NCBI GenBank assembly: GCA_030430495.1
Contig: JAUIKM010000012.1
Coordinates: 1 to 64,000, forward strand
DNA from: a bacterium
GTDB taxonomy: Bacteria; Bacteroidota; Ignavibacteria; Kapaibacteriales; UBA7675
Length of the DNA stretch: 64,000 nt
Reading direction: 5' to 3'
Shown here: piece by piece, positions 17,936 through 40,775 of the stretch
How the letters are laid out: each line of letters opens with the position of its first letter
Position numbering within the stretch: the stretch's first letter is position 1
Notes under the pieces: generated by a model
The model's input: the letters and a program-made list of their open reading frames with translations, nothing else
Told to the model about the DNA's origin: nothing
The model's database searches: none
Translations under genes and position numbers: made by a program

Positions 17936-20900
17936 ATGAAATCTCGTCGTTTGATTACCAGTTTCGACCTGCTGCGCCGTTTGCGCAAGGACGCCCGTCG
18001 CCTGCAGCGTTTTTCCACTTACACCGACAGCTCCACGCGCCGCAAGACAGCATTTTTGCGCCGCCGCCTGGAAAAGCTGATCCGGATCCTGAATCCGCTT
18101 GCCAATCCCCGGCTGGCGCTCAGACTGGCTGCGATTGCTTTCGGCGGTCTGGCGGCTGGAAACCTGCAAGCACAGGTCCCGCTCCTGCTGAGCGTGACGC
18201 CGACGGCAAACGACGTCAATGCGGCGACCAGCGCGAATATCACTGCGACGTTTGACACGGCGATGGATACAGGGACGTTGACCGCGGGGAACATCCGGAT
18301 TTTTGGCTCGCAAACGGGTTTTCTGAGCGACGACGGCGTGTACAGCGGGATAACGACCGCAATATTTAATCCGGATAATAATTTCAAGCCCGGCGAAAAA
18401 GTGTCGGTGTCCATTACGACCGGCGTTGAGTCCACCAACGGCACGGCTCTGTCGACTTCGCATGTGTTTCAATTCATTACTGCCGTGGAATTTGGCTCCG
18501 GCATATTTGCCAATCGCGCACTAAGCGGGACCGCTGGCGGCAATGCGGCTACGATCGGCGATTTTGACGGCGACGGCAGTCTCGACGTCGTCGTTGTTCG
18601 CGAAAGCGCCTCCTCGTTGATATGGCTGAACAATGGCGACGGAACCTTTTCCGAGACGTCGTTCGGCAGCACAAACAACAGCCGCGATGTTGTCAGCGGC
18701 GATCTGGACGGCGACGGCGATCTGGACGTGGTGGTCGTCAACTACAATCAGGCCAACGAAGTCTGGCTGAACAACGGCGACGGCACGTTCACGAGCAGCG
18801 CTTTTGGTTCGGGCCGCTCCAACGGCGTTGATATCGGCGACATGGACGGCGACGGCGACCTCGACATCGTGCAGGTTACCAGTCGAGAGCAGGACGAAGT
18901 CTGGTTCAACAACGGCGACGCGACTTTCTCCGTTCAGACATTCGGCACCGCCACGGCATCGGCCGGCGCTGTTTTCACCTTGCATTCAATGGACACGGGC
19001 ATCGGCGATCTGGACAACGACGGCGATCTTGACGTCATCGTCACGAAGATCATGGCCTTCAACAGCTACCGCCAGGACATCTGGCTGAACGACGGGACCG
19101 GGACTCTCAGCCCGCAGACGTTCGCTTCCAGCGCCAGTCTGACGCACATCAAACTTGCCGATCTTGACGGCGATGGCGACCTGGATTTCATTCACACCTC
19201 CGGCGGAACTCCGACGATCTATCAGAACAACGGCGATGCGACCTTTGCCTCGCAGTCGCTCGCCTTGTTCGATATTCGTGAAGTGTCGCTGGGAGACATT
19301 GACGGCGACGGCGACCTCGACATGGCGTCTGCCGGCGGAATCAACGGTGACGTGCTGTTGCGCAACAACGGCAGCCTGAACATCATCGCCGACAACATAG
19401 GCGATGACACCGGCTTGGCGCTGCTCTCTGCGATCGGTGATTTTGACAACGACGGCGACCTTGACGTTTTGTTCGTCAATCAGATTTCATCGCCGACCTT
19501 GTGGATCAACGATCCGCCGGCGACCGTTGTCGATCTGTCTCCCGACAAAAATGCAGTAGCAGCCGGGCGCGCCACGGACGTGCGCATCGCATTCCTACAG
19601 ACAATGCAGACCAGCACGCTGACCATCAATGCGGCGCCGACGCACGCCAACATTGTTGTTTACGGCTCGCAAACCGGGCACCTGGGCACGAGCGCTACGT
19701 TGTCCTTTGAGGATGACGACGAAATCGCGGTCATCACGCCGGCGTCCGACTTCAAGCCGGGCGAGCTGGTCTCAGTGACCGTCACAGGTGCGTCCAAGTA
19801 TGACGGCCGCGATCCGAAGGAACTCGAAAAAGCGCTGGTCTACAGTTTTATTGTGGGCGCGGACGGCGGCACGGGCGTGTTCAGCAGCAGCGGTTTTGGA
19901 ACGGGCGAAAGCACGAATATTGAATTCGGCGATCTTGACGGCGACGGCGATCTGGACGCCATCGTTACGAACTACTATACGCCGAATGAAATCTGGTTAA
20001 ACAACGGCGACGCAAGTTTTGCGACTTCGACCCTGGGTACGAAGTTCAGCTCCGACGTCGCGCTGGGCGACCTTGACGGCGACGGCGACCTGGATGCCGT
20101 TATCAGCGCGTACTTTGCTTATCCGCAGGAAATCTGGTTAAACAACGGCGACGGTACTTTCAGCAGTTCGACCTTCGGCAGCGGCAGCAGCCGCGATGTT
20201 GCGCTGGGGGATTTGGACGGTGACGGCGACCTCGACGCGGTGATCGCCAATTACTACGACGAAGCCGAGCACATCTGGTTTAACAACGGCGACGGCACGT
20301 TTACTTCGACATCGCTCGGCGCGGGCGACAGCAAAGGCGTCGCCATCGGCGATCTTGACGGCGACTGTGACCTCGACGTCGTCATCACGAATATCGGCGG
20401 AGCCGACAACATCTGGTTAAACAACGGCGGCGGACAGTTTGTCACGAGCAGCTTCGGCGCGGGCGACGGACAGGCTGTTGCACTTGGCGACCTCGACGGC
20501 GATGGCGACCTGGATGCGTTTATCGCGCGCTCCAACACCGGCAACGACATCTGGAAAAACAACGGCGACGGCAGCTTCAGCCTTGGTTCGCTCGGCAATG
20601 CGGTCGACCACGATGTTGCTTTGGGCGATCTTGACGGCGACGGCGACCTGGACGCGGTTTCGGCTGTTAACGGCGGCGCGCAAAGAATCTGGACCAACAA
20701 CGGCGACGCGACGTTTACGGAGCGCAGCTTCGGCACGGGCGACAGCCGCGGACTGGCCATCGGCGATCTTGACGGCGACGGCGACCTGGACGTAGCGGTC
20801 ATGAACTACGTGACCAACGACCGCGAAATCTGGATCAACTCCGGAACGCCGCGCGTCACCAGCGTCGTTCCCTCGACCAATGCAAACTCCGTGTTGCAGG

Positions 20901-23900
20901 ACGCCGACATCCAGATCAACTTTAACGCGCAGATGGCCGCGACCACCCTGACCACTTCTGTTAACATTGCAGACGCAAACTTTATCGTGCACGGTATGCA
21001 GACCGGCCACATGTCCAGCAATGCGGTCGTGACGGTCACCAACAGCAATATGCGCGCCATCATTAATCCGGCGCTTGACTACCACGCCGGTGAACTGATA
21101 ATGGTAACCGTTACGAACGCGGCGGTGAGCAACGGTCTGAAGATTGAACGTCCGGTTGTGTTCAGTTTCACCGCGCAGGCCACGACGGGCAGCGGAACGT
21201 TTGTCTCGACCAGTATCGGCGGCGGCAATTCGCGAGCGGCAGCCATCGGCGATCTTGACGGCGACGGCGATCTGGACGCGATTATCGGTCGCTATTCAAA
21301 CAGTTCTCAGATTCACATAAACAACGGCAACGGCACCTTTTCGGTTTCGGGCTTCGGATCGGTCGGGCTACACCTGGACGCCGCCCTGGGCGATCTCAAC
21401 GGCGACGGTGCACTGGATGCGGTGCTTGTCAACGGTCCGTCGCGTCAGAATGAGATTTGGTTAAACAATGGTGACGGGACCTTCAGTTCCTCGACCTTCG
21501 GCACGGACGACGGCTTTGCCGTGGATTTAGGCGATCTTGACGGCGATGGCGACCTCGATGCAATCGTCGTTACCGACGGTGCTTTTGACCGACGCTGGAT
21601 CAACAACGGCGACGGGTCTTTTGTGAGTTTGCAGCCGGGATCGGGAGTCAACGGCACCAGAGATCAGGTTGCCGTCGCCATCGGCGATCTGGACAACGAT
21701 GGCGATCTGGATGCGGTGACCGCTGCGGATAACAACCGCGGCGCAACAATCTTCCGCAACAACGGCGATGGAACATTTACACAGAGTATTGAAACGGGCT
21801 TTACGGCCAAAGGCGTTGCTCTTGGCGACCTTGACGGCGACGGCTGGCTCGACGCCGTCTGGGCGATTTCCGGGGATGTTGACCGGCTGCGCTTAAACAA
21901 CGGCTCGGGTTCGCTCACCGGCGAGGTCGAGGAATTCGGCGATAGCTCTTCCAGTTCCAGCGTTGCGCTTGGCGATCTGGACGGCGACGGCGACCTGGAT
22001 ATGATGTTTGCTAAGGACAGCGGCGGACATCACGTCTTTTTTAACAATGGCGATGCGACGTTTATAAGCTCCAGTTTTGCCGGTACTCCATCCTTGCGAA
22101 TGGCGATCGGCGATCTTGACAACGACGACGATCTGGACTTCATTTCGGGCAACGGCTCAACAGGCCGATTGTATCTGAACCAACCGCCTTCGCCGCCGCC
22201 GCCGCCGGTGTTTTATCCGCGCGTCACAACGCTCTCGCCCACAACCAATGCCAATGCCGCGCCGGTCGACAGCGATATTGAGATTTCGTTCAGCACAAGC
22301 ATGAACGTGTCCAGTCTCAGTTCGACGAATATTAACATTTTTGGAAACTTCAGTGGTTACCTCTCGACGAGCGGTGTGCTGAGCAGCACGAACCCGCGCG
22401 TGTTTAATCCGGACGCCGACTTCCTGCCGGGCGAACTTATCTCCGTCACGGTGACCGGCGCCCAGAGCCAGGCCGGTGTGACGGCGTCGACGGCGACCGT
22501 CTACAGCTTCCGCGCCGAGGTGACCAACGGCAATGCAACCTTCGAGACTTCACATTTCGATTTTGGATTTTACTCCGGTCTCGACCTGGGCGATCTGGAC
22601 GGCGACGGCGATCTGGATGCAATTGTCGCACACGGCGCATTCGGCGGTCAACGCCTGTGGTTAAACAACGGCGACGGCAGTTTTGCGACAAGCAGCCAGG
22701 GCGACGGACGCGGAACCGGCGTGGCCATGGGCGATCTGGACAACGACGGCGACCTCGACGCCATGGTCTCTCGCGCAGGTTACGCCGAGGAAGTCTGGTT
22801 AAACAACGGTGACGGCAGCTTCGGCACCGCCACGGCCGGCAATTCCAACGGCAACAGCCGCGGCCTCGACCTGGGCGATCTGGACGGCGACGGCGATCTC
22901 GATGCGATTGTCGCCAACGAGAGCGGTCAGGCCCAGGCCATCATGTTAAACAATGGCGATGCGACCTTTGATGTATTTACGATCGGCGGCTCACGCGGCC
23001 GCGACGTGGCGCTGGGCGATCTTGACGGCGACGGTGATCTCGACGCGATTGTAGCAGGATACTATTCTTCCAGCGAACTGATGCTGAACAACGGCGACGG
23101 CTCATTCGCCGTCAGCAGTTTCGGCATTACCCGCATTCAACGCACGGCGGTCGACGTTGGCGATCTGGACGGCGACGGCGATCTGGACGTTGTCATGTCC
23201 GCCTACGACGACGCACATGAAATCTGGTTTAACGACGGAACAGGCGTGTTAACAAGTTCGTCCTTTGCCTCCTGGGTTTCGCAGGACGTACAACTGGGCG
23301 ACCTTGACGGTGACGGCGACCTTGACGCATTTTTTGCGGCGAACGGGGAACTGACTGAAGCCTCCGAGGAAGGCGGCGGCGGTGACGGGCGTCTGCCTGC
23401 CGCTCTGCCCGGCACAACGACGCACAAGGAGGAAATGATCTGGCTTAACAACGGCGACGGCAGTTTTGTCTCTTTTGTCGTCGGCGTGGGTGAAAGCAGC
23501 GCCGCCTCGCTGGGCGATCTGGACGGTGATGGCGATCTGGACGCATTGGTGGTTAACGACGAGGGCGGCGGCGCTCCGGCACAGCTGTGGCTAAACGGCG
23601 CACCGGTGCAGCTCTTGTCGGTAGCGCCTGAACAACACAATAACAATGTCGACAAAGACGCCGACATCGACCTGGTGTTTAACACGGCGATCAATCCAAC
23701 GACGCTGAGCGGATCGTCCAACACCAATTCCGCGGGCATCAGTGTGTTTGGCTCGCAGACGGGCAACCTGGCGCCGGCGGCGACCATCGAGTTTACTTCG
23801 AGCACAAACGCAACGATCAACCCCGCCGCGGACTTTAAGGCCGGAGAAAAGGTCTCCGTGACGGTCTCAAAACCGGAAGCGTTTACGGGCGAGACCGTCG

Positions 23901-26900
23901 CCAATTCGCGCGTGCAGGAGTTTCGCGCCAAAGTGTCGCGCGGTGTGGCCATCTTTGAATCGGTTTCCGCGACAGGCGCCGGCGTCGGCATCAGCGACCA
24001 GGATGCCGGCGATGTGAACGGCGACGGTTTTGTCGACCTCGTCTACGCCCTGACGGGCTCGCGCCTGGAAGTGCTGACAAACAATGCCGACGGCGAAATC
24101 GGTTTTGCAGACAGCTCGACCGGTTTCTCATCCGGTGCGATCTGGATCAAACTGGGCGACCTTGACGGCGACGGCGATCTGGACGTCTTCAGCAACGGTG
24201 CGGGCGAGCAGGCGGTTCTGTTTAACGACGGCGCCGGCAATTTCTCGTTGAGCAGCGTCGCCAACATCGCCTCACTCACCACGATCGAACTGGGTGATAT
24301 TGACGCGGACGGCGACCTCGACGCCATTCTGGCCGGCTACGACAGCTACGGTGTTCTGTTTAATGACGGCACAGGCGGTTTCAGCGGCAATTCCTTCAGC
24401 AGCCCCGTGCAATCGCAGGAAGTGGTACTCGGCGATCTTGACAACGACGGCGACCTCGACATTCTGGTCGTCGGTTATTACGACAACAATCGCGTGCTTC
24501 TGAACAATGGCGACGGCACGTTTACAGCCGGATCAAATGCCGGCAACGGCGTCAGTTACAGCGCCGCGCTGGGCGACCTTGACGATGACGGCGATCTTGA
24601 CGCCGTTATCGCCAACACCGTCGGGGCACACACGCTGCTGAACAACCAGGGCAACGCTACATTCACAACTCAATCGCTTCCGGCGGCCACCAGCTCCAAA
24701 GCAGTTGTTGAACTGGGCGATATGGACGGCGACGGCGACCTTGACATCGTCATGGTCTACGACGACGAGCCGACGGAATTCTGTCGCAACCTGGGCGGCT
24801 TTAACTTTGCTCGCGAGCAGCTTGCCGCCGGTGACGCGGCATCAATGAACATCGCCGATTTTGACAACGACGACGACCTGGATATTGCCGAGAGCTCGGC
24901 CGCACTTAAACGGGTCTGGGAAAACGTCGACGCGCCGATCGTCACCGCGCTCGATCCGAATTGTATTATCGAAACGACGGCCAACCTGTCGATTACCGTC
25001 ACGGGCGAAAACTTTGTCGAGACACAAGCAACAATAACGATATTAAACGGCGACGGCAGCGACTCCGGTACGACTCTGTCGCTTTCGCTGCTTTCCGGCG
25101 CAACGTCCAACCAATTCCAGACAGTCATACCGTCCGGTTATGTTTCGACGGCGGGTACGCTGACATTGACCATTACCGGCCGTGAAAACCGCACGACGAC
25201 AACAACCTTGACAGTTCATCCGCTGATCGACATTGTCGGCAATATCTGCAACTTCAACGGCATCGACGAAACTTATACCGTCGCGCCGGCAGATGTGAAT
25301 GCCGCGCACGCCTGGAGCGTGACGAACGGTGAGATTGTCGGAAGTTCAAGCGGCAGTCAGGTCCTGGTTAACTGGGACGACGGTGCGGCCGGCACGCTGA
25401 CACTGCTGCGGACTTACGCAAGCGGCTGTACGACGGCGACGGCATTTTCGGTCAGCCCGGTCGGCATTCCGACGGTCGAAGACCTGGCATTTACGGCGGT
25501 CAACGAGCCGGTTACAATTGCGGTTCTGTTTAATGATGCGAGCGGCCTGAGTTTGTTAAGTGTTTCGACACCGGACAATGGTTCGGCCGTGACAAGCGGC
25601 AATGCGGTTGTGTATACGCCGGACAACGGATTCGTCGGCTTCGATAGTTTTACCTACACGGTCGAAAACAGCGAAGGATGCAGCGTCACCGGAGCTGTCA
25701 CGACGGTGGTCGGACTCGGCACAAAATACACGCACAACCTCGTCTGGCTGGAACGCGAGAAAGATCGCGTCGGCGGTGTGCGTGGACTGAACCGCGCCGT
25801 CGATGTGGCGGTCAGTCCCGACGGTAAACACCTGTATGCGTCCGGCCGCAGTGATCACAGTATTGCACTGTTTAACATCGATGCGACAAGCGGTACAATC
25901 GAGTACGTTAAACGCGTCCGCAATGGTCGCAACGGCGTCACCCGCATGCGTTATCCCGAGTCCCTGCTTATCAGTCCCGACGGCGATAATCTCTACGTCC
26001 TGTCGTACGGCGACAACGCCGTTGTGGTTTTTGATCGCAACGCCGCCACGGGCGACCTGAGTTACGTTGAGAACAAACGCAACGGGACGTCGGACGCCGG
26101 TGGAACAATCAGTCGCATGAAAGGTCCGCGCAGCCTCGCGCTCAGCGACGACCAGGAAAATCTGTATGTGGCCGGTCAGAGCAACAATGGCCTCGTGGTG
26201 TTCGAGCGCAGTACAACCAGCGGCACGCTGACATTTATGGAGTCGTTTAAAGACGGTGTCGACGGCGTCGACGGCCTGCGCGAAATTCTGGACGTGCAGG
26301 TGAGTCCCGACGATGCGCATGTTTATGCGGCCGGTTTCGGCGAAGATGAGATTGCCATCTTCGAACGTTCATCAACCAACGGCAGTTTAACGTTTCTGGA
26401 GCGCGTGCGCGACGGTGTCGACGGCGTAGACGGACTGGAGAATGTCGCCGGGCTGGCTTTAAGTCCCGACGGCAACAACCTGTACGCCGTTTCAAACGGC
26501 GGCGATGCGCTCGTGACGTTTGAGCGTTCCAGCACCAACGGCTCGCTCAGTTTTGTTGAACTTGAGCGCGACGGCAGCGGCGGTGTCAACGGACTTAACG
26601 GCGCCCGCGACGTGATTCTGGATTCCCAGGGGCGCGAGTTGTACGTCAGCGGCTCGAACGACGACGCCATTGCAGGTTTTGCGCGCAGTGCTACCGGAGA
26701 GGTTTGTTTTAACGGTGCATCGGTGGACGGCGTCGACGGTGTCGACGGAATTGACAGGGTGCGCGGATTGGCGCTCTCGCCCGACGGATCCTACATCTAC
26801 GGCGCTGGTTACGGCGAGAATTCGGTGGCGGCTTTTCGTCGCAACTATCATCCATTTGCGTTTGAAGACACCGGACTTAACGTTCCGGCCAACTCGTCGC

Positions 26901-27460
26901 TGACGATCAGCGTGTTGACAAACGATGTTGATCCTGACGGCGATGTTCTGACGATTAGCTCCAAAACCAACGGCTCACTTGGGACCGTATCGATAGTCAA
27001 CAGTTCAACAAAACTCGAATACAACTCGGGCAGTTCAAGCGGCAACGACACGTTTACCTACACAATCAGCGACGGCAACGGCGGCAGTTCAACGGCCAGC
27101 GTCAGCATCCTGGTGCTGAGCAGCGGACGCCGGGACGGGGTGGACGAGCCAGGTGTTAATGCTGATATTCCGGCGGCAGACGTGCGCGTCTCTCCAAATC
27201 CGACGGCCGGCGCTGCGACGGTGAGTTTTCATGTTAACAAACGCAGTCGCGTTACTGCTCGCATTGCGGCGCTGACGGGGCACGAACTGTGGAAAGCACA
27301 ACTGGGCGACTTGAACGCGGGTATGCATGCCTTTATCTGGCAGGGCCAGGACCTTGCCGGACAAAAGTTGCCCAGCGGCGTTTACTACCTGGAGCTGACT
27401 CTCGACGACGGCAGCGGCAATGTGCAGCGACTCAACACGGAAGTCGTGATCAAACGTTAA
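17936..27460 (+). CDS. giant FG-GAP/VCBS, Ig-like and beta-propeller surface protein
   Basis: This is a 3174-residue protein. A long basic N-terminus (residues 1-55) precedes a signal-like segment (LALRLAAIAFGGLAAGNLQAQ, end near 80). Five Ig-like (Big_5 type) domains start near residues 82, 527, 971, 1427 and 1890. Each is followed by a block of FG-GAP/VCBS repeats with the Ca-binding pattern GDLDGDGDLD and WLNNGDGTF. Then come a TIG-like domain (about 2334), a PKD-like domain (2430), a cadherin-like domain (2512), a lactonase-type propeller with DGVDGVDGL repeats (2600-2973), another cadherin-like domain (2975), and a type IX-like sorting domain (3082-3174, SPNPTAGAATVSF). It is probably a secreted calcium-binding adhesin. 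Many Leu-Asn pairs use TTA-AAC although CTG dominates elsewhere. A terminator follows. Confidence 0.93.
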   Translation: MKSRRLITSFDLLRRLRKDARRLQRFSTYTDSSTRRKTAFLRRRLEKLIRILNPLANPRLALRLAAIAFGGLAAGNLQAQVPLLLSVTPTANDVNAATSANITATFDTAMDTGTLTAGNIRIFGSQTGFLSDDGVYSGITTAIFNPDNNFKPGEKVSVSITTGVESTNGTALSTSHVFQFITAVEFGSGIFANRALSGTAGGNAATIGDFDGDGSLDVVVVRESASSLIWLNNGDGTFSETSFGSTNNSRDVVSGDLDGDGDLDVVVVNYNQANEVWLNNGDGTFTSSAFGSGRSNGVDIGDMDGDGDLDIVQVTSREQDEVWFNNGDATFSVQTFGTATASAGAVFTLHSMDTGIGDLDNDGDLDVIVTKIMAFNSYRQDIWLNDGTGTLSPQTFASSASLTHIKLADLDGDGDLDFIHTSGGTPTIYQNNGDATFASQSLALFDIREVSLGDIDGDGDLDMASAGGINGDVLLRNNGSLNIIADNIGDDTGLALLSAIGDFDNDGDLDVLFVNQISSPTLWINDPPATVVDLSPDKNAVAAGRATDVRIAFLQTMQTSTLTINAAPTHANIVVYGSQTGHLGTSATLSFEDDDEIAVITPASDFKPGELVSVTVTGASKYDGRDPKELEKALVYSFIVGADGGTGVFSSSGFGTGESTNIEFGDLDGDGDLDAIVTNYYTPNEIWLNNGDASFATSTLGTKFSSDVALGDLDGDGDLDAVISAYFAYPQEIWLNNGDGTFSSSTFGSGSSRDVALGDLDGDGDLDAVIANYYDEAEHIWFNNGDGTFTSTSLGAGDSKGVAIGDLDGDCDLDVVITNIGGADNIWLNNGGGQFVTSSFGAGDGQAVALGDLDGDGDLDAFIARSNTGNDIWKNNGDGSFSLGSLGNAVDHDVALGDLDGDGDLDAVSAVNGGAQRIWTNNGDATFTERSFGTGDSRGLAIGDLDGDGDLDVAVMNYVTNDREIWINSGTPRVTSVVPSTNANSVLQDADIQINFNAQMAATTLTTSVNIADANFIVHGMQTGHMSSNAVVTVTNSNMRAIINPALDYHAGELIMVTVTNAAVSNGLKIERPVVFSFTAQATTGSGTFVSTSIGGGNSRAAAIGDLDGDGDLDAIIGRYSNSSQIHINNGNGTFSVSGFGSVGLHLDAALGDLNGDGALDAVLVNGPSRQNEIWLNNGDGTFSSSTFGTDDGFAVDLGDLDGDGDLDAIVVTDGAFDRRWINNGDGSFVSLQPGSGVNGTRDQVAVAIGDLDNDGDLDAVTAADNNRGATIFRNNGDGTFTQSIETGFTAKGVALGDLDGDGWLDAVWAISGDVDRLRLNNGSGSLTGEVEEFGDSSSSSSVALGDLDGDGDLDMMFAKDSGGHHVFFNNGDATFISSSFAGTPSLRMAIGDLDNDDDLDFISGNGSTGRLYLNQPPSPPPPPVFYPRVTTLSPTTNANAAPVDSDIEISFSTSMNVSSLSSTNINIFGNFSGYLSTSGVLSSTNPRVFNPDADFLPGELISVTVTGAQSQAGVTASTATVYSFRAEVTNGNATFETSHFDFGFYSGLDLGDLDGDGDLDAIVAHGAFGGQRLWLNNGDGSFATSSQGDGRGTGVAMGDLDNDGDLDAMVSRAGYAEEVWLNNGDGSFGTATAGNSNGNSRGLDLGDLDGDGDLDAIVANESGQAQAIMLNNGDATFDVFTIGGSRGRDVALGDLDGDGDLDAIVAGYYSSSELMLNNGDGSFAVSSFGITRIQRTAVDVGDLDGDGDLDVVMSAYDDAHEIWFNDGTGVLTSSSFASWVSQDVQLGDLDGDGDLDAFFAANGELTEASEEGGGGDGRLPAALPGTTTHKEEMIWLNNGDGSFVSFVVGVGESSAASLGDLDGDGDLDALVVNDEGGGAPAQLWLNGAPVQLLSVAPEQHNNNVDKDADIDLVFNTAINPTTLSGSSNTNSAGISVFGSQTGNLAPAATIEFTSSTNATINPAADFKAGEKVSVTVSKPEAFTGETVANSRVQEFRAKVSRGVAIFESVSATGAGVGISDQDAGDVNGDGFVDLVYALTGSRLEVLTNNADGEIGFADSSTGFSSGAIWIKLGDLDGDGDLDVFSNGAGEQAVLFNDGAGNFSLSSVANIASLTTIELGDIDADGDLDAILAGYDSYGVLFNDGTGGFSGNSFSSPVQSQEVVLGDLDNDGDLDILVVGYYDNNRVLLNNGDGTFTAGSNAGNGVSYSAALGDLDDDGDLDAVIANTVGAHTLLNNQGNATFTTQSLPAATSSKAVVELGDMDGDGDLDIVMVYDDEPTEFCRNLGGFNFAREQLAAGDAASMNIADFDNDDDLDIAESSAALKRVWENVDAPIVTALDPNCIIETTANLSITVTGENFVETQATITILNGDGSDSGTTLSLSLLSGATSNQFQTVIPSGYVSTAGTLTLTITGRENRTTTTTLTVHPLIDIVGNICNFNGIDETYTVAPADVNAAHAWSVTNGEIVGSSSGSQVLVNWDDGAAGTLTLLRTYASGCTTATAFSVSPVGIPTVEDLAFTAVNEPVTIAVLFNDASGLSLLSVSTPDNGSAVTSGNAVVYTPDNGFVGFDSFTYTVENSEGCSVTGAVTTVVGLGTKYTHNLVWLEREKDRVGGVRGLNRAVDVAVSPDGKHLYASGRSDHSIALFNIDATSGTIEYVKRVRNGRNGVTRMRYPESLLISPDGDNLYVLSYGDNAVVVFDRNAATGDLSYVENKRNGTSDAGGTISRMKGPRSLALSDDQENLYVAGQSNNGLVVFERSTTSGTLTFMESFKDGVDGVDGLREILDVQVSPDDAHVYAAGFGEDEIAIFERSSTNGSLTFLERVRDGVDGVDGLENVAGLALSPDGNNLYAVSNGGDALVTFERSSTNGSLSFVELERDGSGGVNGLNGARDVILDSQGRELYVSGSNDDAIAGFARSATGEVCFNGASVDGVDGVDGIDRVRGLALSPDGSYIYGAGYGENSVAAFRRNYHPFAFEDTGLNVPANSSLTISVLTNDVDPDGDVLTISSKTNGSLGTVSIVNSSTKLEYNSGSSSGNDTFTYTISDGNGGSSTASVSILVLSSGRRDGVDEPGVNADIPAADVRVSPNPTAGAATVSFHVNKRSRVTARIAALTGHELWKAQLGDLNAGMHAFIWQGQDLAGQKLPSGVYYLELTLDDGSGNVQRLNTEVVIKR

Positions 27461-28079: not shown

Positions 28080-28481
28080 AAGCCGCGCCCAAAATTTAGA
28101 GATCGTCCGCTTAATACCCAATCCATCCCGTTTACCGGTCCAGACCTCGCGTTCAGCAGGGTATCGTTGACAAAGCAGAATAAAGGCCGGATGTTTTTTC
28201 CACAATGTACAAAGTGGCCCTCGGAGCTGCCGTGCGGTAGCTCAGGTCCCGCAACCGGCACGCATGTTACTGTTCTTCCGACTGTTTGGAGCCCGGATCA
28301 TGGAAACAGAGACCGGCACAAGGACCTGTATGCGCCACTCGCAATGACGAACAAAAGAGGCATTTTAAAGAGGGCCCGCAGGGCAACCGATCTGAAATTA
28401 TATGTCGCTAAATGGTGGAAAAGCGGCGAAACCAGATGAAAAACGGCGATTGTCAAGAAAATGCTTGCACAGGAAAACTGG

Positions 28482-28500
28482 TGTAACCAAGTTTGTTACA
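28482..28500. promoter_or_regulatory. candidate Rrf2 operator, site 1
   Basis: A perfect inverted repeat TGTAAC-N7-GTTACA ends 17 bases before the Rrf2 start codon. The same arms and spacing recur at 29025 and 29165 upstream of the exporter operon. Its position suggests autorepression by blocking transcription or initiation. Confidence 0.6.
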
Positions 28501-28517
28501 GTCAAGAAGGAATTGGA

Positions 28518-28979
28518 ATGAACAAGAGTAGTCGTTTTGCCGTGGCCGTGCATATTATGTCGGGGCTGGCGCTGGGGCAGATTACCGGAACGGAGGAGTG
28601 CGTGACTTCGTCAAAACTGGCGAACAGCGTAAACACAAATCCGGTGGTGGTGCGCCGTATTCTGGGCGTGATGCGCAATGCAGGGCTGGTGACGTCCATT
28701 AAGGGCGCCGACGGTGGTTCAACCTTGAGCCGACCGCCGGAACAGATAACGCTGCTGGACATTTACCGCGCGGTTGAGACCGGACAATTGTTTCATTTCC
28801 ACTATGCCAAACCTAATGCCGACTGTCCAATCGGATGCTGCATTCTCGAAATAATGCAGCGCGTTGTCGACAAAGCAGACGATGCTGTGAGTTCGGTCCT
28901 GGCAAATTACACCTTGCGTGATATTGCCGAGGAACTGAGAGAACGCGGTCGCAGGCGTTGGGCATTCCTGAACAATTAA
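28518..28979 (+). CDS. Rrf2-family transcriptional regulator
   Basis: This is a 153-residue regulator. The ATG at 28518 follows AAGGA by about 8 bases. The N-terminal winged helix (SSRFAVAVHIMSGLAL; SSKLANSVNTNPVVVRRIL; GLVTSIKGADGGSTLSRP) is typical of Rrf2, and a dimerisation helix follows. The cysteine cluster ADCPIGCCI sits where Fe-S members (IscR, NsrR) and YwnA-like members carry their sensor segment. Three Cys within six residues is a different arrangement from the classical 2Fe-2S ligands. It probably controls itself and the exporter operon 375 bp downstream, because TGTAAC-N7-GTTRCA sites occur before both. Redox or electrophile sensing is likely but inferred. Confidence 0.93.
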   Translation: MNKSSRFAVAVHIMSGLALGQITGTEECVTSSKLANSVNTNPVVVRRILGVMRNAGLVTSIKGADGGSTLSRPPEQITLLDIYRAVETGQLFHFHYAKPNADCPIGCCILEIMQRVVDKADDAVSSVLANYTLRDIAEELRERGRRRWAFLNN

Positions 28980-28982
28980 ACT

Positions 28983-29011
28983 CCGCCTTGTTCGTGAACA
29001 GCGGGATTTTT
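28983..29011 (+). terminator. likely terminator of the Rrf2 gene
   Basis: CCGC and GTTC pair with GAAC and GCGG across a small internal loop, followed by a five-T run at 29007. The stem is modest. Confidence 0.5.
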
Positions 29012-29024
29012 ATTTGCACCTAAA

Positions 29025-29043
29025 TGTAACCATGTGGGTTGCA
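29025..29043. promoter_or_regulatory. candidate Rrf2 operator, site 2
   Basis: TGTAAC-N7-GTTGCA is present. The arms extend to nine bases (AAATGTAAC / GTTGCATTT) with one mismatch. Confidence 0.55.
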
Positions 29044-29164
29044 TTTAAACAGTACGACGGCTGCACAGCCTGCTGTACTGCGGAACGAAGAGTCAGCAAC
29101 TGTAACAGCTTTACTGACAGTTAAATACACATAACACTGTGTGAGGCGTTCCTGGGCGTGTAAT

Positions 29165-29183
29165 TGTAACCGATGTAGTTGCA
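29165..29183. promoter_or_regulatory. candidate Rrf2 operator, site 3
   Basis: TGTAAC-N7-GTTGCA matches site 2 in arms and spacing and lies 171 bases before the exporter start codon. Confidence 0.55.
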
Positions 29184-29265
29184 GTTATTGCCATGGGATT
29201 ACATTGTCCATTCGGAACGAACAGCACAGTGTTTCAGCAGGGGACAACAGTCCGGACAACCGTCT

Positions 29266-29353: not shown

Positions 29354-31729
29354 ATGAAACAGCCTGGAAAATTTGACAAGTTTATGCGGAGCTACGGCGA
29401 ATGGGTAATTCGGCAGCGTTGGTCGATCGTCGTCGTCGGAACTCTACTGGCAGCCGGCATTGCAATCGGTGCGGGCAATCTGTGGTTCGATACGGACTAC
29501 CGCGCGTTTTTCAGCAAGGAGAATCCACAGCTACAGTCTTTTGAGGCGATGCAGAATATCTATACCAAAAACGACAACATCCTGGTTGTCCTGGCGCCTG
29601 AAGACGGGGATGTGTTTACAGCGCGCAACCTGGCGGCAATCGAAAATTTAACGGAAAAGGCATGGAAAGTTCCCTATGCGATTCGCGTTGACGCCATAAG
29701 CAATTTCCAGCATACAATTGCCGAGGGCGACGACCTGCTGGTGGCTGATCTCGTGGAAGATGCCGCGTCGCTCAGTCCCGCCGAAATAGAAGCGCGTCGC
29801 GCCGTTGCTCTGCAGGAACCGGCCTTGTTTAAGCGGCTGATCAACGTCGACAGCGATGTGAGCGGAATTAACATCACCTTGCAGTTGCCGGGGGAATCGA
29901 TGATGGAGGTGCCGGACGCCGCGGCCTATGCGCGCGGTCTGGCGGCGTCATTTGAACAGGAGTATCCCGGCATTAAAACCTACCTGACCGGTACGGTGAT
30001 GTTAAACAATGCCTTTTCCGAGGCCGGGCAGAGCGACATGATGACGCTCGTGCCGCTGATGTATCTGTTGATTTTTGTTGTTATGGCCTTTCTGCTGCGT
30101 TCGGTCAGCGGTAGCATTGCAACCTTCAGCGTCATTACGTTTGCAACGATCATTGCGATGGGGTTTGCGGGTTGGTTCGGCGTTGGACTGACACCTCCCT
30201 CGGCCAACGCAACAACAATGATCATGACAATTGCGATAGCGGATTGTGTTCACATTCTGCTGAGCATACTGCGGGAAATTCGCTTGGGCAGATCCAGGCA
30301 CGAAGCGATCATCGAAAGTTTGCGCGTTAATATGTCGCCGGTGTTTTTAACCAGTCTTACGACGGCAATCGGTTTCCTGAGCATGAACTTCAGCGATGCG
30401 CCGCCCTTCCATCATCTCGGCAACATTACGGCGGCGGGTGTGCTGGCGGCCTGGATATATTCTGTGTTGTTCCTGCCGGCACTGATGGCCATTCTGCCGG
30501 TGCGGGTTAAACACCGCGAAGAGCGTCGCAGCGGTTTTATCGACAAGCTGGCTGAATTTGTCATCGGCCGCCGCAAAGTCCTGCTGTGGGGGTCAGTGGT
30601 TGTTGTAGTCGGACTGACGGCCATGATCTCCCTCAACGAAATGAACGATCAGTTTGTCGACTACTTCGACAAGAGTATTCAGTTCAGAACGGACAGCGAT
30701 TTTGCCGCGGATAATCTGACGGGAATCTACCAGGTGGAGTTTTCGCTGGAGTCGGGCGAGAGCGGCGGTATCAGCAATCCGGAGTACCTTCAGACGGTGG
30801 AGGATTTCACGGAGTGGTACCGCTTACAGCCCAATGTCGTCCATGTGTCATCTTTTACCGAGGTGATGAAACGGGTTAACAAAAGTATGCACGGCGACCT
30901 GCCCGCATACTACCGCATTCCGGATGATCGCGAACTTGCGGCGCAATTTCTGCTGCTGTACGAACTGTCGCTGCCGTACGGCCTTGATCTTAACAATCAG
31001 ATTAACATCGACAAGTCGGCGACGCGTTTTACCGTGACGCTTGACGATGTCAGTTCGCGTGAAATTCGCGAGGCGGCTTCGATTGGCGAGGAATGGTTGC
31101 GGAATAATGCGCCGCGGACGATGCACGCTACGGCGGCGAGTTCGGCGGTAATGTTTGCCTACATTTCAGAGCGAAATATCGAGGGCATGCTGGTCGGTAC
31201 GACCGCCGCGTTGGTATTGATATCATTCTGTTTGTTTATTGCTCTGCGGAGCGGCAAATACGGGCTGATAAGTTTAATTCCCAATCTGGTTCCCGCCGCG
31301 CTGGCCTTCGGCGTATGGGGATTGCTTGTCGGACAGGTTAACCTGGGCCTGGCAATTGTCACCGGTATGACGCTTGGCATAGTTGTTGACGATACCGTGC
31401 ACTTTCTGAGCAAGTACATTCGCGCCCGGCGCGAACAGGGACTCAACGCAGAAGATGCTGTGCGCTACGCTTTTTCGACCGTCGGTATGGCGCTGATTGT
31501 TACCTCGGTGGTTTTGAGCATCGGCTTCGGGATTCTGGCTTTCTCGGCTTTTGACCTGAACGGCAGCATGGGCAAACTGACGGCAATTACAATCATGATT
31601 GCACTGGTGGCGGACTTCCTGCTGTTGCCGCCGCTGTTAATCACGATTGACGGCAGGAAGGAAAGGAGCGCCGACGGCGCTGATATTGAATCGCTGCTTC
31701 AGACGAGCTCACAGCGCAGCAGTGCCTGA
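29354..31729 (+). CDS. MMPL/RND-family exporter (HAE3-like)
   Basis: This is a 791-residue inner-membrane transporter with the two-fold RND layout. A first TM helix (IVVVGTLLAAGIAIGAG) is followed by a periplasmic domain with the family marker FDTDYRAFFSKENPQL. A first bundle of five helices follows (about 225-400, including MYLLIFVVMAFLLRSV). The second half repeats this, with a TM near 410-430, a large loop, and a final bundle about 605-770 that includes GMTLGIVVDDTVHFLSKY. That Asp-Asp segment is where related exporters carry proton-relay acids. Genes for a LolA-like protein and a DUF1302-like barrel follow, an association typical of lipid or hopanoid-type export. It is probably controlled by the upstream Rrf2 regulator. 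Confidence 0.92.
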   Translation: MKQPGKFDKFMRSYGEWVIRQRWSIVVVGTLLAAGIAIGAGNLWFDTDYRAFFSKENPQLQSFEAMQNIYTKNDNILVVLAPEDGDVFTARNLAAIENLTEKAWKVPYAIRVDAISNFQHTIAEGDDLLVADLVEDAASLSPAEIEARRAVALQEPALFKRLINVDSDVSGINITLQLPGESMMEVPDAAAYARGLAASFEQEYPGIKTYLTGTVMLNNAFSEAGQSDMMTLVPLMYLLIFVVMAFLLRSVSGSIATFSVITFATIIAMGFAGWFGVGLTPPSANATTMIMTIAIADCVHILLSILREIRLGRSRHEAIIESLRVNMSPVFLTSLTTAIGFLSMNFSDAPPFHHLGNITAAGVLAAWIYSVLFLPALMAILPVRVKHREERRSGFIDKLAEFVIGRRKVLLWGSVVVVVGLTAMISLNEMNDQFVDYFDKSIQFRTDSDFAADNLTGIYQVEFSLESGESGGISNPEYLQTVEDFTEWYRLQPNVVHVSSFTEVMKRVNKSMHGDLPAYYRIPDDRELAAQFLLLYELSLPYGLDLNNQINIDKSATRFTVTLDDVSSREIREAASIGEEWLRNNAPRTMHATAASSAVMFAYISERNIEGMLVGTTAALVLISFCLFIALRSGKYGLISLIPNLVPAALAFGVWGLLVGQVNLGLAIVTGMTLGIVVDDTVHFLSKYIRARREQGLNAEDAVRYAFSTVGMALIVTSVVLSIGFGILAFSAFDLNGSMGKLTAITIMIALVADFLLLPPLLITIDGRKERSADGADIESLLQTSSQRSSA

Positions 31730-31738
31730 GGCGTGCAG

Positions 31739-31815
31739 CCCAAACACAACCCAAACACAACCCAAACACAACCCAAACACAACCCAAACACAACCCAAAC
31801 ACAACCCAAAACACA
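31739..31815. repeat. 11-bp tandem repeat (CCCAAACACAA) before the LolA-like gene
   Basis: Six perfect copies (31739-31804) are followed by one imperfect copy, starting ten bases after the exporter stop and ending about 40 bases before the next start codon. The unit is not a multiple of three and is close to one DNA helical turn. The RNA would be unstructured (A and C only). Confidence 0.9.
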
Positions 31816-31852
31816 GTCCAAAACAATTCCTCACAGATATCTGGAACAACAC

Positions 31853-32662
31853 ATGTTAAGCGTGAATTCTCTCAGGTCTTTCCTGACAACAAGTGTAACA
31901 ATGGCCGGCGCATTGCTGCTGCTTGCTCCACTGACGGCGGCATCACCGCAGGAAGACGGTCTTTCAATCGCACGTGAAGTTGATCGGCGCGACTCCGGCT
32001 TCAGCGACTTCACCGCGGAATTGCGGATGATTCTGCGCAATCGTCATGGCGAACAGAGCGAGCGCAGTCTGCGCAGCAGCACGCTGGAAGTGGACAGTGA
32101 CGGAGACAAGTCACTGGTGATTTTTGATCGCCCCAACGACGTGAAAGGAACGGCATTTCTGACGTACAGCCACAAAACGGGGCCGGACGATCAGTGGCTT
32201 TACTTGCCGGCGCTTAAACGCGTCAAGCGCATCGCATCCAACAACAAGTCCGGTCCCTTCATGGGCAGTGAGTTTGCCTATGAGGATATCTCCTCACAGG
32301 AGGTGGAAAAATACACCTATAAGTTCATCCGCTCGGAAAAGTTGAACAACATGGACTGTTTTGTCGTCGAGCGTTATCCGGTCGATCCAAAGTCGGGATA
32401 CACGCGCCAGCTCACCTGGATTGACAAACAGAACTACCTGTACCAAAAGATTGACTTTTACGACCGCAAGGACGAACTGCTGAAAACGCTGACCTATTTT
32501 AACTACAAACAGTACGGCGGCAAATACTGGCGTTCCGAAGAGATGACGATGGTGAACCATCAGACGGGAAAAAGCACGACGCTCCAGTGGCGGAACTACA
32601 AGTTCGGCAATGAGTTAAGCGACAGGGATTTTGACCAGAATAGTCTGAAACGCGCACGATAG
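31853..32662 (+). CDS. LolA-like outer-membrane lipoprotein-sorting protein
   Basis: This is a 269-residue secreted protein. The ATG at 31853 is chosen because a signal peptide follows (SFLTTSVTMAGALLLLAPLTAAS); an upstream extension would only translate the 11-bp repeat. The body matches the LolA-like family annotated as outer membrane lipoprotein-sorting protein, with SDFTAELRMILRNRHGE near the start, LVIFDRPNDVKGTAFLTYSH, QWLYLPALKRVKRIASNNK and FMGSEFAYEDI. Such proteins are periplasmic and are usually encoded beside MMPL exporters, where they are thought to carry hydrophobic cargo. It is followed by a terminator, so the downstream barrel gene may have its own promoter. Confidence 0.9.
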   Translation: MLSVNSLRSFLTTSVTMAGALLLLAPLTAASPQEDGLSIAREVDRRDSGFSDFTAELRMILRNRHGEQSERSLRSSTLEVDSDGDKSLVIFDRPNDVKGTAFLTYSHKTGPDDQWLYLPALKRVKRIASNNKSGPFMGSEFAYEDISSQEVEKYTYKFIRSEKLNNMDCFVVERYPVDPKSGYTRQLTWIDKQNYLYQKIDFYDRKDELLKTLTYFNYKQYGGKYWRSEEMTMVNHQTGKSTTLQWRNYKFGNELSDRDFDQNSLKRAR

Positions 32663-32752: not shown

Positions 32753-33958
32753 ATGAAATACTTCAACTTTATTCTGTCCGTTTGTCTTATGACGGTGTTG
32801 ACCTTTAACAGTGCAACATCGCTTGACCTTGGTTTTTCAGGCTCCGTTGCACTGGAGTCGCGCTATTTCCCGGAGTCGGCGCTGCACGACGAACAATTTG
32901 GTCACGAGAATTTTTCGGCTGTGTTGCAGCCGGAGCTGTTTTACGAATGGGACCGCGGTTACCAGCGCGTTGTTTTTACGCCCTTTTTGCGCTGGGATCA
33001 GCACGACGATGAACGCACGCACTGGGATGTGCGCGAGTTGTACTGGGAAATGGTTCAGGACGACTACGAGTTGCGATTTGGTGCGCGGCAGGTGTTCTGG
33101 GGCGTCGCTGAATCACAGCATCTGGTGGACATTGTTAATCAGACGGATCAGATTGAAAGCATCGACGGCGAGGACAAACTGGGCCAGCCGATGCTCCAGT
33201 TGACGCTGGTGCAGGACTGGGGAACGATCAACGGCTTTCTCTTGAGTGGGTTCCGTGAACGCAATTTCGCTGGTGGCGAGGGGCGCCTGCGCGCGCCACT
33301 GCCCGTATTGTCGAAGCGCGCCATGTACGAGTCGTCTGCGGAGGAATGGCATCTCGACTGGGCGTTGCGCTGGTCGCATTACTTCGACGTGTTTGACGTC
33401 GGCATCTCACACTTTAACGGAACGAGCCGCGAACCGCTGTTGCAACTCGGCGCGGACGCCGCGGGCAATCCCGTCCTGACACCGATGTATCCGCTGATTA
33501 ATCAGACCGGACTGGACGCACAGGCGACGATCGGCGGCTGGCTGTTCAAGCTGGAGGCGATCACGCGCGGCGGTCAGGGTGAGCGCTACTACGCGGGCGT
33601 CGGCGGATTTGAGTACACATTCGGCGATGTAGGGCGCAGCGGCATCGACATTGGCGTGCTGGCGGAATACAGTTACGATGATCGCGGCGACGCGGCGACG
33701 CAGCCCTTTGACGATGACTTTTTTGTGGGCTCGCGGCTGGCGTTCAACGATGTGCAGAGTACGGATCTGCTGGCGGGCGTGTTTCTGGATCGCGACTCGG
33801 GCGCGGGTGCGGCACGCCTGGAGGGCAGTCGCCGCATCGGCAGCACATTTAAACTGAATGTGGAGCTGAACGCCTATTTCAATGCACCGGAGACGGACCC
33901 GTTCTTCGCTCTGCGCCGCGACTCCTACCTCCAGGTGGAGCTTGCGCGCTATTTTTAA
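32753..33958 (+). CDS. DUF1302-like outer-membrane beta-barrel protein
   Basis: This is a 401-residue protein starting at ATG 32753, with a signal peptide (FILSVCLMTVLTFNSATS). The mature part consists of alternating amphipathic strands with many aromatic residues and ends in YLQVELARYF, a typical barrel terminus with C-terminal Phe. The segment LRFGARQVFWGVAESQHLVD resembles DUF1302-like porins, which carry a conserved W-G stretch after the first strands. DUF1302 genes commonly accompany MMPL and LolA-like genes, so it is probably the outer-membrane part of that export or lipid-handling set. The barrel call is strong; the DUF assignment is moderate. Confidence 0.82.
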   Translation: MKYFNFILSVCLMTVLTFNSATSLDLGFSGSVALESRYFPESALHDEQFGHENFSAVLQPELFYEWDRGYQRVVFTPFLRWDQHDDERTHWDVRELYWEMVQDDYELRFGARQVFWGVAESQHLVDIVNQTDQIESIDGEDKLGQPMLQLTLVQDWGTINGFLLSGFRERNFAGGEGRLRAPLPVLSKRAMYESSAEEWHLDWALRWSHYFDVFDVGISHFNGTSREPLLQLGADAAGNPVLTPMYPLINQTGLDAQATIGGWLFKLEAITRGGQGERYYAGVGGFEYTFGDVGRSGIDIGVLAEYSYDDRGDAATQPFDDDFFVGSRLAFNDVQSTDLLAGVFLDRDSGAGAARLEGSRRIGSTFKLNVELNAYFNAPETDPFFALRRDSYLQVELARYF

Positions 33959-40251: not shown

Positions 40252-40775
40252 GTTTAAATGGGAAGGGCGACGGGCGAGCATGGGCCGGGGGGCCGACAAG
40301 CGTCCCTGCGACAAATGGCGCTTCCAGTTGTAGCAGGTCGTTTTACAGATGCCGCGTTTTCGCCTGATCGTTTCGAACGAGGCGCCGCTACGCTCGCGGC
40401 GTTGATTTGCCGCACCGGGCACCGGGAGTTCTTCCTTGGCACTGTAGCGACGGTGTTTTACGATCCGTAGATGTTTTTTTATATCTCGATATTTTCGGCG
40501 CAGATCCTGGCAATCGCCGACTTCATCCGCTCCAGCCCGGCCCTGGGCGCCTGTTTCTCCGGATCCTCGCGTTTGGGTGTGGTCGTGGTCCGCGGGCGGC
40601 TGAGTGCCGCGGACTTTGTTTGTTTTTCACAGGCATAGATTTACCGGTGGGCGATCATGAGTCGCCGGCAGACTTCGCAGACGCTGTGACCGCTTTGGCG
40701 TATTTGCTCGATGATTCTCAGCTTGTTCTCGGCGCTCCACCTGAGCCGGACGGTTTTCTGTTGGGGTTCGATCAA
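40225..40775 (-). pseudogene. decayed IS3-like transposase (orfA plus orfB fragment)
   Basis: On the minus strand, TTG at 40775 opens a 44-codon frame with RLRWSAENKLRIIEQIRQSG and HSVCEVCRRLMIAHR. This is the helix-turn-helix start of an IS3-type OrfA, stopped by TAA at 40641. Downstream, a different stretch encodes GLERMKSAIARICAENIEI, like the OrfA leucine-zipper end. At about 40420-40225 comes FETIRRKRGICKTTCYNWKR, resembling the start of OrfB. Stops and frame changes separate the parts, and the catalytic DDE domain is absent. No terminal inverted repeats were identified. Confidence 0.65.

Follow-up and report, generated by a model that had tools for sequence, protein, structure and literature searches.

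At one locus of a Kapaibacteriales genome (Bacteroidota, class Ignavibacteria; GCA_030430495.1), a gene for an Rrf2-type regulator lies upstream of a gene for an MMPL exporter and similar inverted repeats precede both, which raises the question of whether the regulator controls itself and the exporter, and to what signal it might respond. The window analysed was a stretch of 64,000 nucleotides (contig JAUIKM010000012.1, positions 1 to 64,000, forward strand). The first-pass annotation had reported three TGTAAC-N7-GTTRCA sites here, and all three were recovered as exact matches (O1, O2 and O4 below). It had also described a half-site at 29101; the location was correct, but both core half-sites were found at 29101-29119, with one mismatch (O3). 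The features of the locus are as follows.

approx. 28466..28494, + strand: putative rrf2 promoter TTGCAC-N17-CAAGTT, with its -10 within the operator spacer
28482..28500, no strand: operator O1, TGTAACCAAGTTTGTTACA, exact TGTAAC-N7-GTTRCA match; perfect core TGTAA-N9-TTACA; rrf2 ATG 17 bp downstream; kept in all orthologues
28518..28979, + strand: Rrf2-family regulator of the YwnA/SifR/HypR branch, 153 aa (Pfam PF02082, 1.9e-32)
29025..29043, no strand: operator O2, TGTAACCATGTGGGTTGCA, exact TGTAAC-N7-GTTRCA match; one mismatch to the core TGTAA-N9-TTACA
29101..29119, no strand: operator-like O3, TGTAACAGCTTTACTGACA; one mismatch to the same core
29165..29183, no strand: operator O4, TGTAACCGATGTAGTTGCA, exact TGTAAC-N7-GTTRCA match; one mismatch to the same core
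29354..31729, + strand: MMPL/HAE3-type RND transporter, 791 aa (Pfam PF03176, 2.2e-35)
31853..32662, + strand: periplasmic LolA_like protein, 269 aa from Met 31853 (PF17131; weaker DUF1329 match)
32753..33958, + strand: predicted outer-membrane beta-barrel, 401 aa, kept in the operon; no match to a Pfam family

The regulator and its own operator

The 153-aa protein scored 112.6 bits against PF02082 (cut-off 30), which places it in the Rrf2 family. Its nearest solved relatives were 1ylf (2.6e-26) and 1xd7, which is YwnA (7e-23); CymR followed at 4.7e-9, and CymR, RsrR and IscR were all far behind the first two. The AlphaFold model (pLDDT 85) showed an Rrf2 fold with 1ylf as the top Foldseek match and further matches to 1xd7, RsrR and CymR, and the recognition-helix segment of the helix-turn-helix, SVNTNPVVVRR, was identical in YwnA 1xd7. 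The start codon at 28518 agrees with the orthologues. A start at 28461, which would give a product of 172 aa and place O1 within the gene, was rejected, since the orthologous genes start at the site equivalent to 28518.

Three cysteines of the regulator, at positions 103, 107 and 108, are clustered. Cys103 sits in the context FHFHYAKPNADCPIG and precedes the long dimerisation helix, which begins at residue 106 in the AlphaFold model. It was present in 32 of 34 YwnA-type sequences and invariant in 10 aligned relatives; Cys28, Cys107 and Cys108 were not conserved among relatives. In HYAKPNADC, Cys103 fits the SifR-type pattern of a cysteine capping the N-terminus of alpha5 in an HxxPNPxC motif, in a relaxed form with PNA for PNP. 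In SifR, an Rrf2 monothiol quinone sensor of Streptococcus pneumoniae, Cys102 reacts with quinones and SifR then leaves the DNA (PMC9218516). The two proteins share the Rrf2 fold and a single conserved cysteine after a PN motif, and Cys103 is placed before the dimerisation helix as is Cys102 of SifR (PMC9218516).

Two characterised members of the family use a pair of cysteines instead. HypR of Staphylococcus aureus, which has the same operator core as the regulator studied here, uses Cys33-Cys99, and SaiR of Bacillus anthracis, an Rrf2 dithiol sensor, uses a C-X7-C pair. A HypR-type switch would form an inter-subunit disulfide in response to hypochlorite or related oxidants, rather than sense electrophiles through one thiol. 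HypR (NF041852) was the best named NCBIfam subfamily model for the regulator, although its 51.8 bits fell below the equivalog cut-off of 180, and the present genome shares Cys28 with the class genome G002, while G231 has an offset cysteine. However, no conserved second cysteine of the HypR type was found among the orthologues; Cys28 is absent in G391 and G401, and neither keeps a second conserved cysteine, yet both carry the same operon and operator. A dithiol switch is thus unlikely, and the monothiol reading is preferred.

The site at rrf2 was compared with the published operator. HypR of S. aureus and SifR of S. pneumoniae both bind the core TGTAA-N9-TTACA (PMC9218516); TGTAAC-N7-GTTACA describes this 19-bp element too and fixes one further base pair in each arm. 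The likeness to SifR and to YwnA of Bacillus subtilis covers this 19-bp operator and, for YwnA, the recognition-helix segment (PMC9218516). O1 is the only one of the four sites with a perfect core, and this own-gene operator, together with YwnA-type closest characterised relatives, places the regulator in the YwnA/SifR/HypR branch. Among 34 YwnA-type Rrf2 genes sampled from the phylum and class, 29 had the exact core at most 60 bp upstream of the start codon and 32 had a core with at most one mismatch. No core site was found upstream of more distant Rrf2 genes (0/27), even over 450 bp scanned. Relatives in Paenibacillus and Bacillus have TGTAACTATAATGCTTACA upstream, one mismatch from the core. 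Judged by its sequence, the operator at rrf2 is the known operator of this branch. A different Rrf2 subfamily, whose genes start MSASTKL (L022, L026, L048), has a repeat of its own about 30 bp upstream, TGTtACA-N5-TGTaACA, of which TGTTACAGGACCTGTAACA is an example; it is not the YwnA-type core.

The operator also overlaps a putative promoter. In a pattern spotted after viewing the alignment, a -35-like TTG stood 16 or 17 bp before the operator at 6/6 class loci, against 0.2 expected from shuffling, and the hexamer 16-17 bp past it, the candidate -10, therefore falls in the operator spacer. The elements were TTGACA-N16-TATAAT in G391, TTGACA-N16-TATTAT in G231, TTGACA-N17-TATGTT in G401, TTGGAA-N17-TATATT in G362 and TTGCGC-N17-TATGTT in G002; the rrf2 promoter of the present genome is a weak match, with a weak -10, CAAGTT. 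At 13 of 23 loci from other classes of the phylum (0.5 expected), TAnnTTTG lay directly before the operator or overlapped it, a sequence that resembles the Bacteroidota -7 element. This geometry indicates a probable autorepression by promoter occlusion.

The exporter operon and the sites before it

The closest model to the MMPL protein was TIGR00921 (HAE3), at 171.5 bits and under the cut-off of 351.9. The LolA_like orthologues occupy the same operon position, and the beta-barrel protein gave an AlphaFold model (pLDDT 68) with about 18 or more strands and Foldseek matches to porins. The three proteins together probably form an inner-to-outer-membrane exporter for hydrophobic or amphiphilic compounds. 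A known system that the exporter resembles is AmeABCD of Castellaniella defragrans, in which an HAE3 transporter, a LolA-superfamily protein and an outer-membrane protein give monoterpene tolerance (PMC6394551). The likeness lies in the architecture: each operon combines an RND protein of the HAE3 type (about 790 aa) with periplasmic and outer-membrane partners, the periplasmic one from the LolA superfamily (PMC6394551). Unlike AmeABCD, the present locus showed no AmeC homologue, its LolA_like protein belongs to PF17131 with a weak DUF1329 match, and its barrel lacks a DUF1302 match. There is a weak hint that the substrate of the pump is hydrophobic or amphiphilic and possibly electrophilic.

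The stretch that separates the MMPL stop from the LolA_like start contains eight 11-bp tandem units, CCCAAACACAA, at 31739-31826, and the LolA_like frame is open through this array from an alternative GTG at 31733. Upstream of the locus, positions 17936-27460 of the window encode a 3174-residue protein with many LGDLDGDGDLDA-type repeats and a C-terminal tail resembling FlgD/sorting domains.

The gene order Rrf2-MMPL-LolA_like-beta-barrel was also found in the class genomes G002, G231 and G401, and in G391 the same order extends to LolA_like, where the contig ends. Among 391 class genomes, six encode a YwnA-type Rrf2 (E up to 1e-12) and five encode a close MMPL (E up to 1e-90); the five are within the six and the two genes are adjacent in them. 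In G002, whose Rrf2 is 64% identical, rrf2 is preceded by one perfect core site and MMPL by two sites. G401 carries a single site at each of the two positions, upstream of rrf2 and in the gap, and in both G231 and G391 a single perfect site stands upstream of rrf2. Across these four relatives the operator arms are kept and the spacers changed, as would be expected of protein-binding sites, and the possibility that the motif would not be conserved at orthologous loci, raised in the first-pass annotation, was not borne out.

No site was found in the gaps before MMPL in G231 and G391 (<90 bp), and control there would therefore rest on the rrf2 operator and co-transcription. Close MMPL relatives in G687 and G497 stand beside TetR or HxlR regulators, not Rrf2: a TetR-type regulator next to the MMPL gene in G687 (L123 3385-3966), and an HxlR-type regulator with an N-terminal cysteine near it in G497 (L124 4168-4590). 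This suggests regulator exchange at one exporter type; the exporter is therefore not tied to Rrf2, which is one of several regulators linked to it. G231 (L090 12362-13045, - strand) and G391 (L092 3064-3726, - strand) encode, no more than a few kb from the operon, NAD(P)-binding proteins with a GATGMVGEG motif; these may be quinone reductases like YwnB.

In the present genome the Rrf2-MMPL gap is 374 bp long. A first-order Markov model predicted 5e-5 to 4e-4 exact sites in it and two were observed. With at most one mismatch to the published core, the gap holds three sites (29025, 29101, 29165); among 20,000 dinucleotide shuffles of the gap, none gave three core sites and 11 gave two. Two findings speak against control of the exporter through the gap: none of O2, O3 and O4 matches the core perfectly (one mismatch in each), and no convincing promoter was seen near them; a consensus promoter scan of the + strand of the gap returned nothing. 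These facts, and the absence of gap sites in G231 and G391, would fit a reading in which O1 is the sole functional site, with O2, O3 and O4 as decoys or relics and with MMPL expression either independent or due to read-through. Against this, three near-perfect sites within 374 bp were never matched by shuffling, and gap sites recur independently, two in the 283-bp gap of G002 (equalled by 2/20,000 shuffles) and one in G401. Decoy sites are therefore improbable, and we retain the reading in which the gap sites are operators of the exporter operon.

The DNA at about 28982-29005 can form a hairpin with a T-rich stretch behind it, but its folding was only slightly better than that of shuffles (z -1.1), and an intrinsic terminator between rrf2 and MMPL is therefore not claimed. 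A 20-base imperfect inverted repeat, AACACTGTGTGAGGCGTTCC (29133-29152) and GGAACGAACAGCACAGTGTT (29214-29233), lies on either side of O4. An Rfam search of the window returned no known RNA element.

The signal and the extent of the regulon

The likeness to SifR points, with moderate confidence, to a thiol-reactive electrophile or oxidant acting at Cys103 as the signal. A quite different signal, iron or nitric oxide, would apply if the regulator were an Fe-S cluster sensor of the IscR/NsrR/RirA type instead of a monothiol protein. Weak matches to the RirA, IscR and NsrR models and the cluster of Cys103, Cys107 and Cys108 would agree with such a sensor, but the model scores (30-47 bits) were far under the cut-offs of 182-208, the best solved relatives are YwnA-type, the IscR pattern C-X5-C-X5-C (quoted in PMC9218516) is absent, and Cys107 and Cys108 are missing in G002 and most relatives, leaving Cys103 as the one general cysteine. 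An Fe-S sensor is accordingly very improbable, and a monothiol sensor at Cys103 remains the preferred reading.

The whole genome (5,595,130 bases, 80 contigs) was searched for TGTAAC-N7-GTTRCA. The result showed three exact matches, all at the rrf2-MMPL locus; frequent occurrence in coding sequence, which the first-pass annotation had named as a possible objection, was thus not seen. Sixteen further matches with one mismatch occur elsewhere, 13 of them within open frames of at least 160 aa; the three exceptions are L005, with no frame over it, L009, with an 82-aa frame, and L019, with a 62-aa frame. No second target is proposed, because there is no other exact site and the one-mismatch sites lie nearly all within open frames. 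A match to the core at 40329 is no more than chance would give, since simple counting predicts about two such matches per 64 kb.

That the four sites are merely chance inverted repeats has a negligible probability: the core is short and several class genomes have 17-31 core matches each, mostly unrelated, but the genome-wide count of exact matches, the shuffles, the conservation in orthologues and the clade-wide occurrence rule it out, in agreement with the original judgement that the sites are unlikely to be due to chance.

A model for the locus and its relation to known systems

Taken as a whole, it is very likely that a monothiol redox- or electrophile-responsive Rrf2 repressor controls itself and a hydrophobic-compound exporter. 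In this model the 153-residue protein, a member of the YwnA/SifR/HypR branch, would act as a homodimeric winged-helix repressor, which in its reduced form would bind the 19-bp TGTAAC-N7-GTTRCA palindromes. At O1 it would cover the -10 of its own promoter and cause autorepression, and at O2, O3 and O4 it would repress the MMPL-LolA_like-beta-barrel operon. Once Cys103 is modified, by an oxidant or by an electrophile such as a quinone, the repressor would leave the DNA and the pump would be induced. Support at the level of sequence covers the sites, their rarity and conservation, the clade-wide motif, the promoter geometry, the gene families and the gene order, and argues strongly that the protein binds the sites and represses. 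The autoregulation and exporter control proposed in the first-pass annotation are likewise made probable by the orthologue sites, the match to the published SifR/HypR operator and the predicted promoter coverage; what goes beyond it is the assignment of the regulator to a subfamily, thiol modification as the likely signal, a fourth site, and the overlap of operator and promoter.

The regulator, the operator and the exporter architecture are each of a known kind, and the target operon appears to be new. The targets of SifR are a catechol dioxygenase, quinone and ferric reductases, and iron uptake (PMC9218516), whereas here an MMPL-LolA_like-barrel exporter is the proposed target, and the genome is that of a bacterium with an outer membrane. 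The SifR cluster has been described from Firmicutes and a few Actinobacteria (PMC9218516), and in the open-licence literature no paper was found containing both Rrf2 and MMPL. We tentatively propose, at slightly less than even confidence, that outside Gram-positives an HAE3-type transenvelope exporter has come under the control of a SifR/YwnA-type monothiol electrophile sensor, giving electrophile-inducible efflux of reactive hydrophobic compounds, with operator multiplication within one family (one in G231 and G391, four here).

An operator and sensor type known from Gram-positives are hereby extended to a phylum with outer membranes. The link to an uncharacterised HAE3/LolA_like/barrel exporter offers a lead on the inducer, and perhaps the cargo, of a poorly understood transporter type, and the clade-wide operator (29/34) can be used to predict YwnA-type Rrf2 regulons across the phylum.
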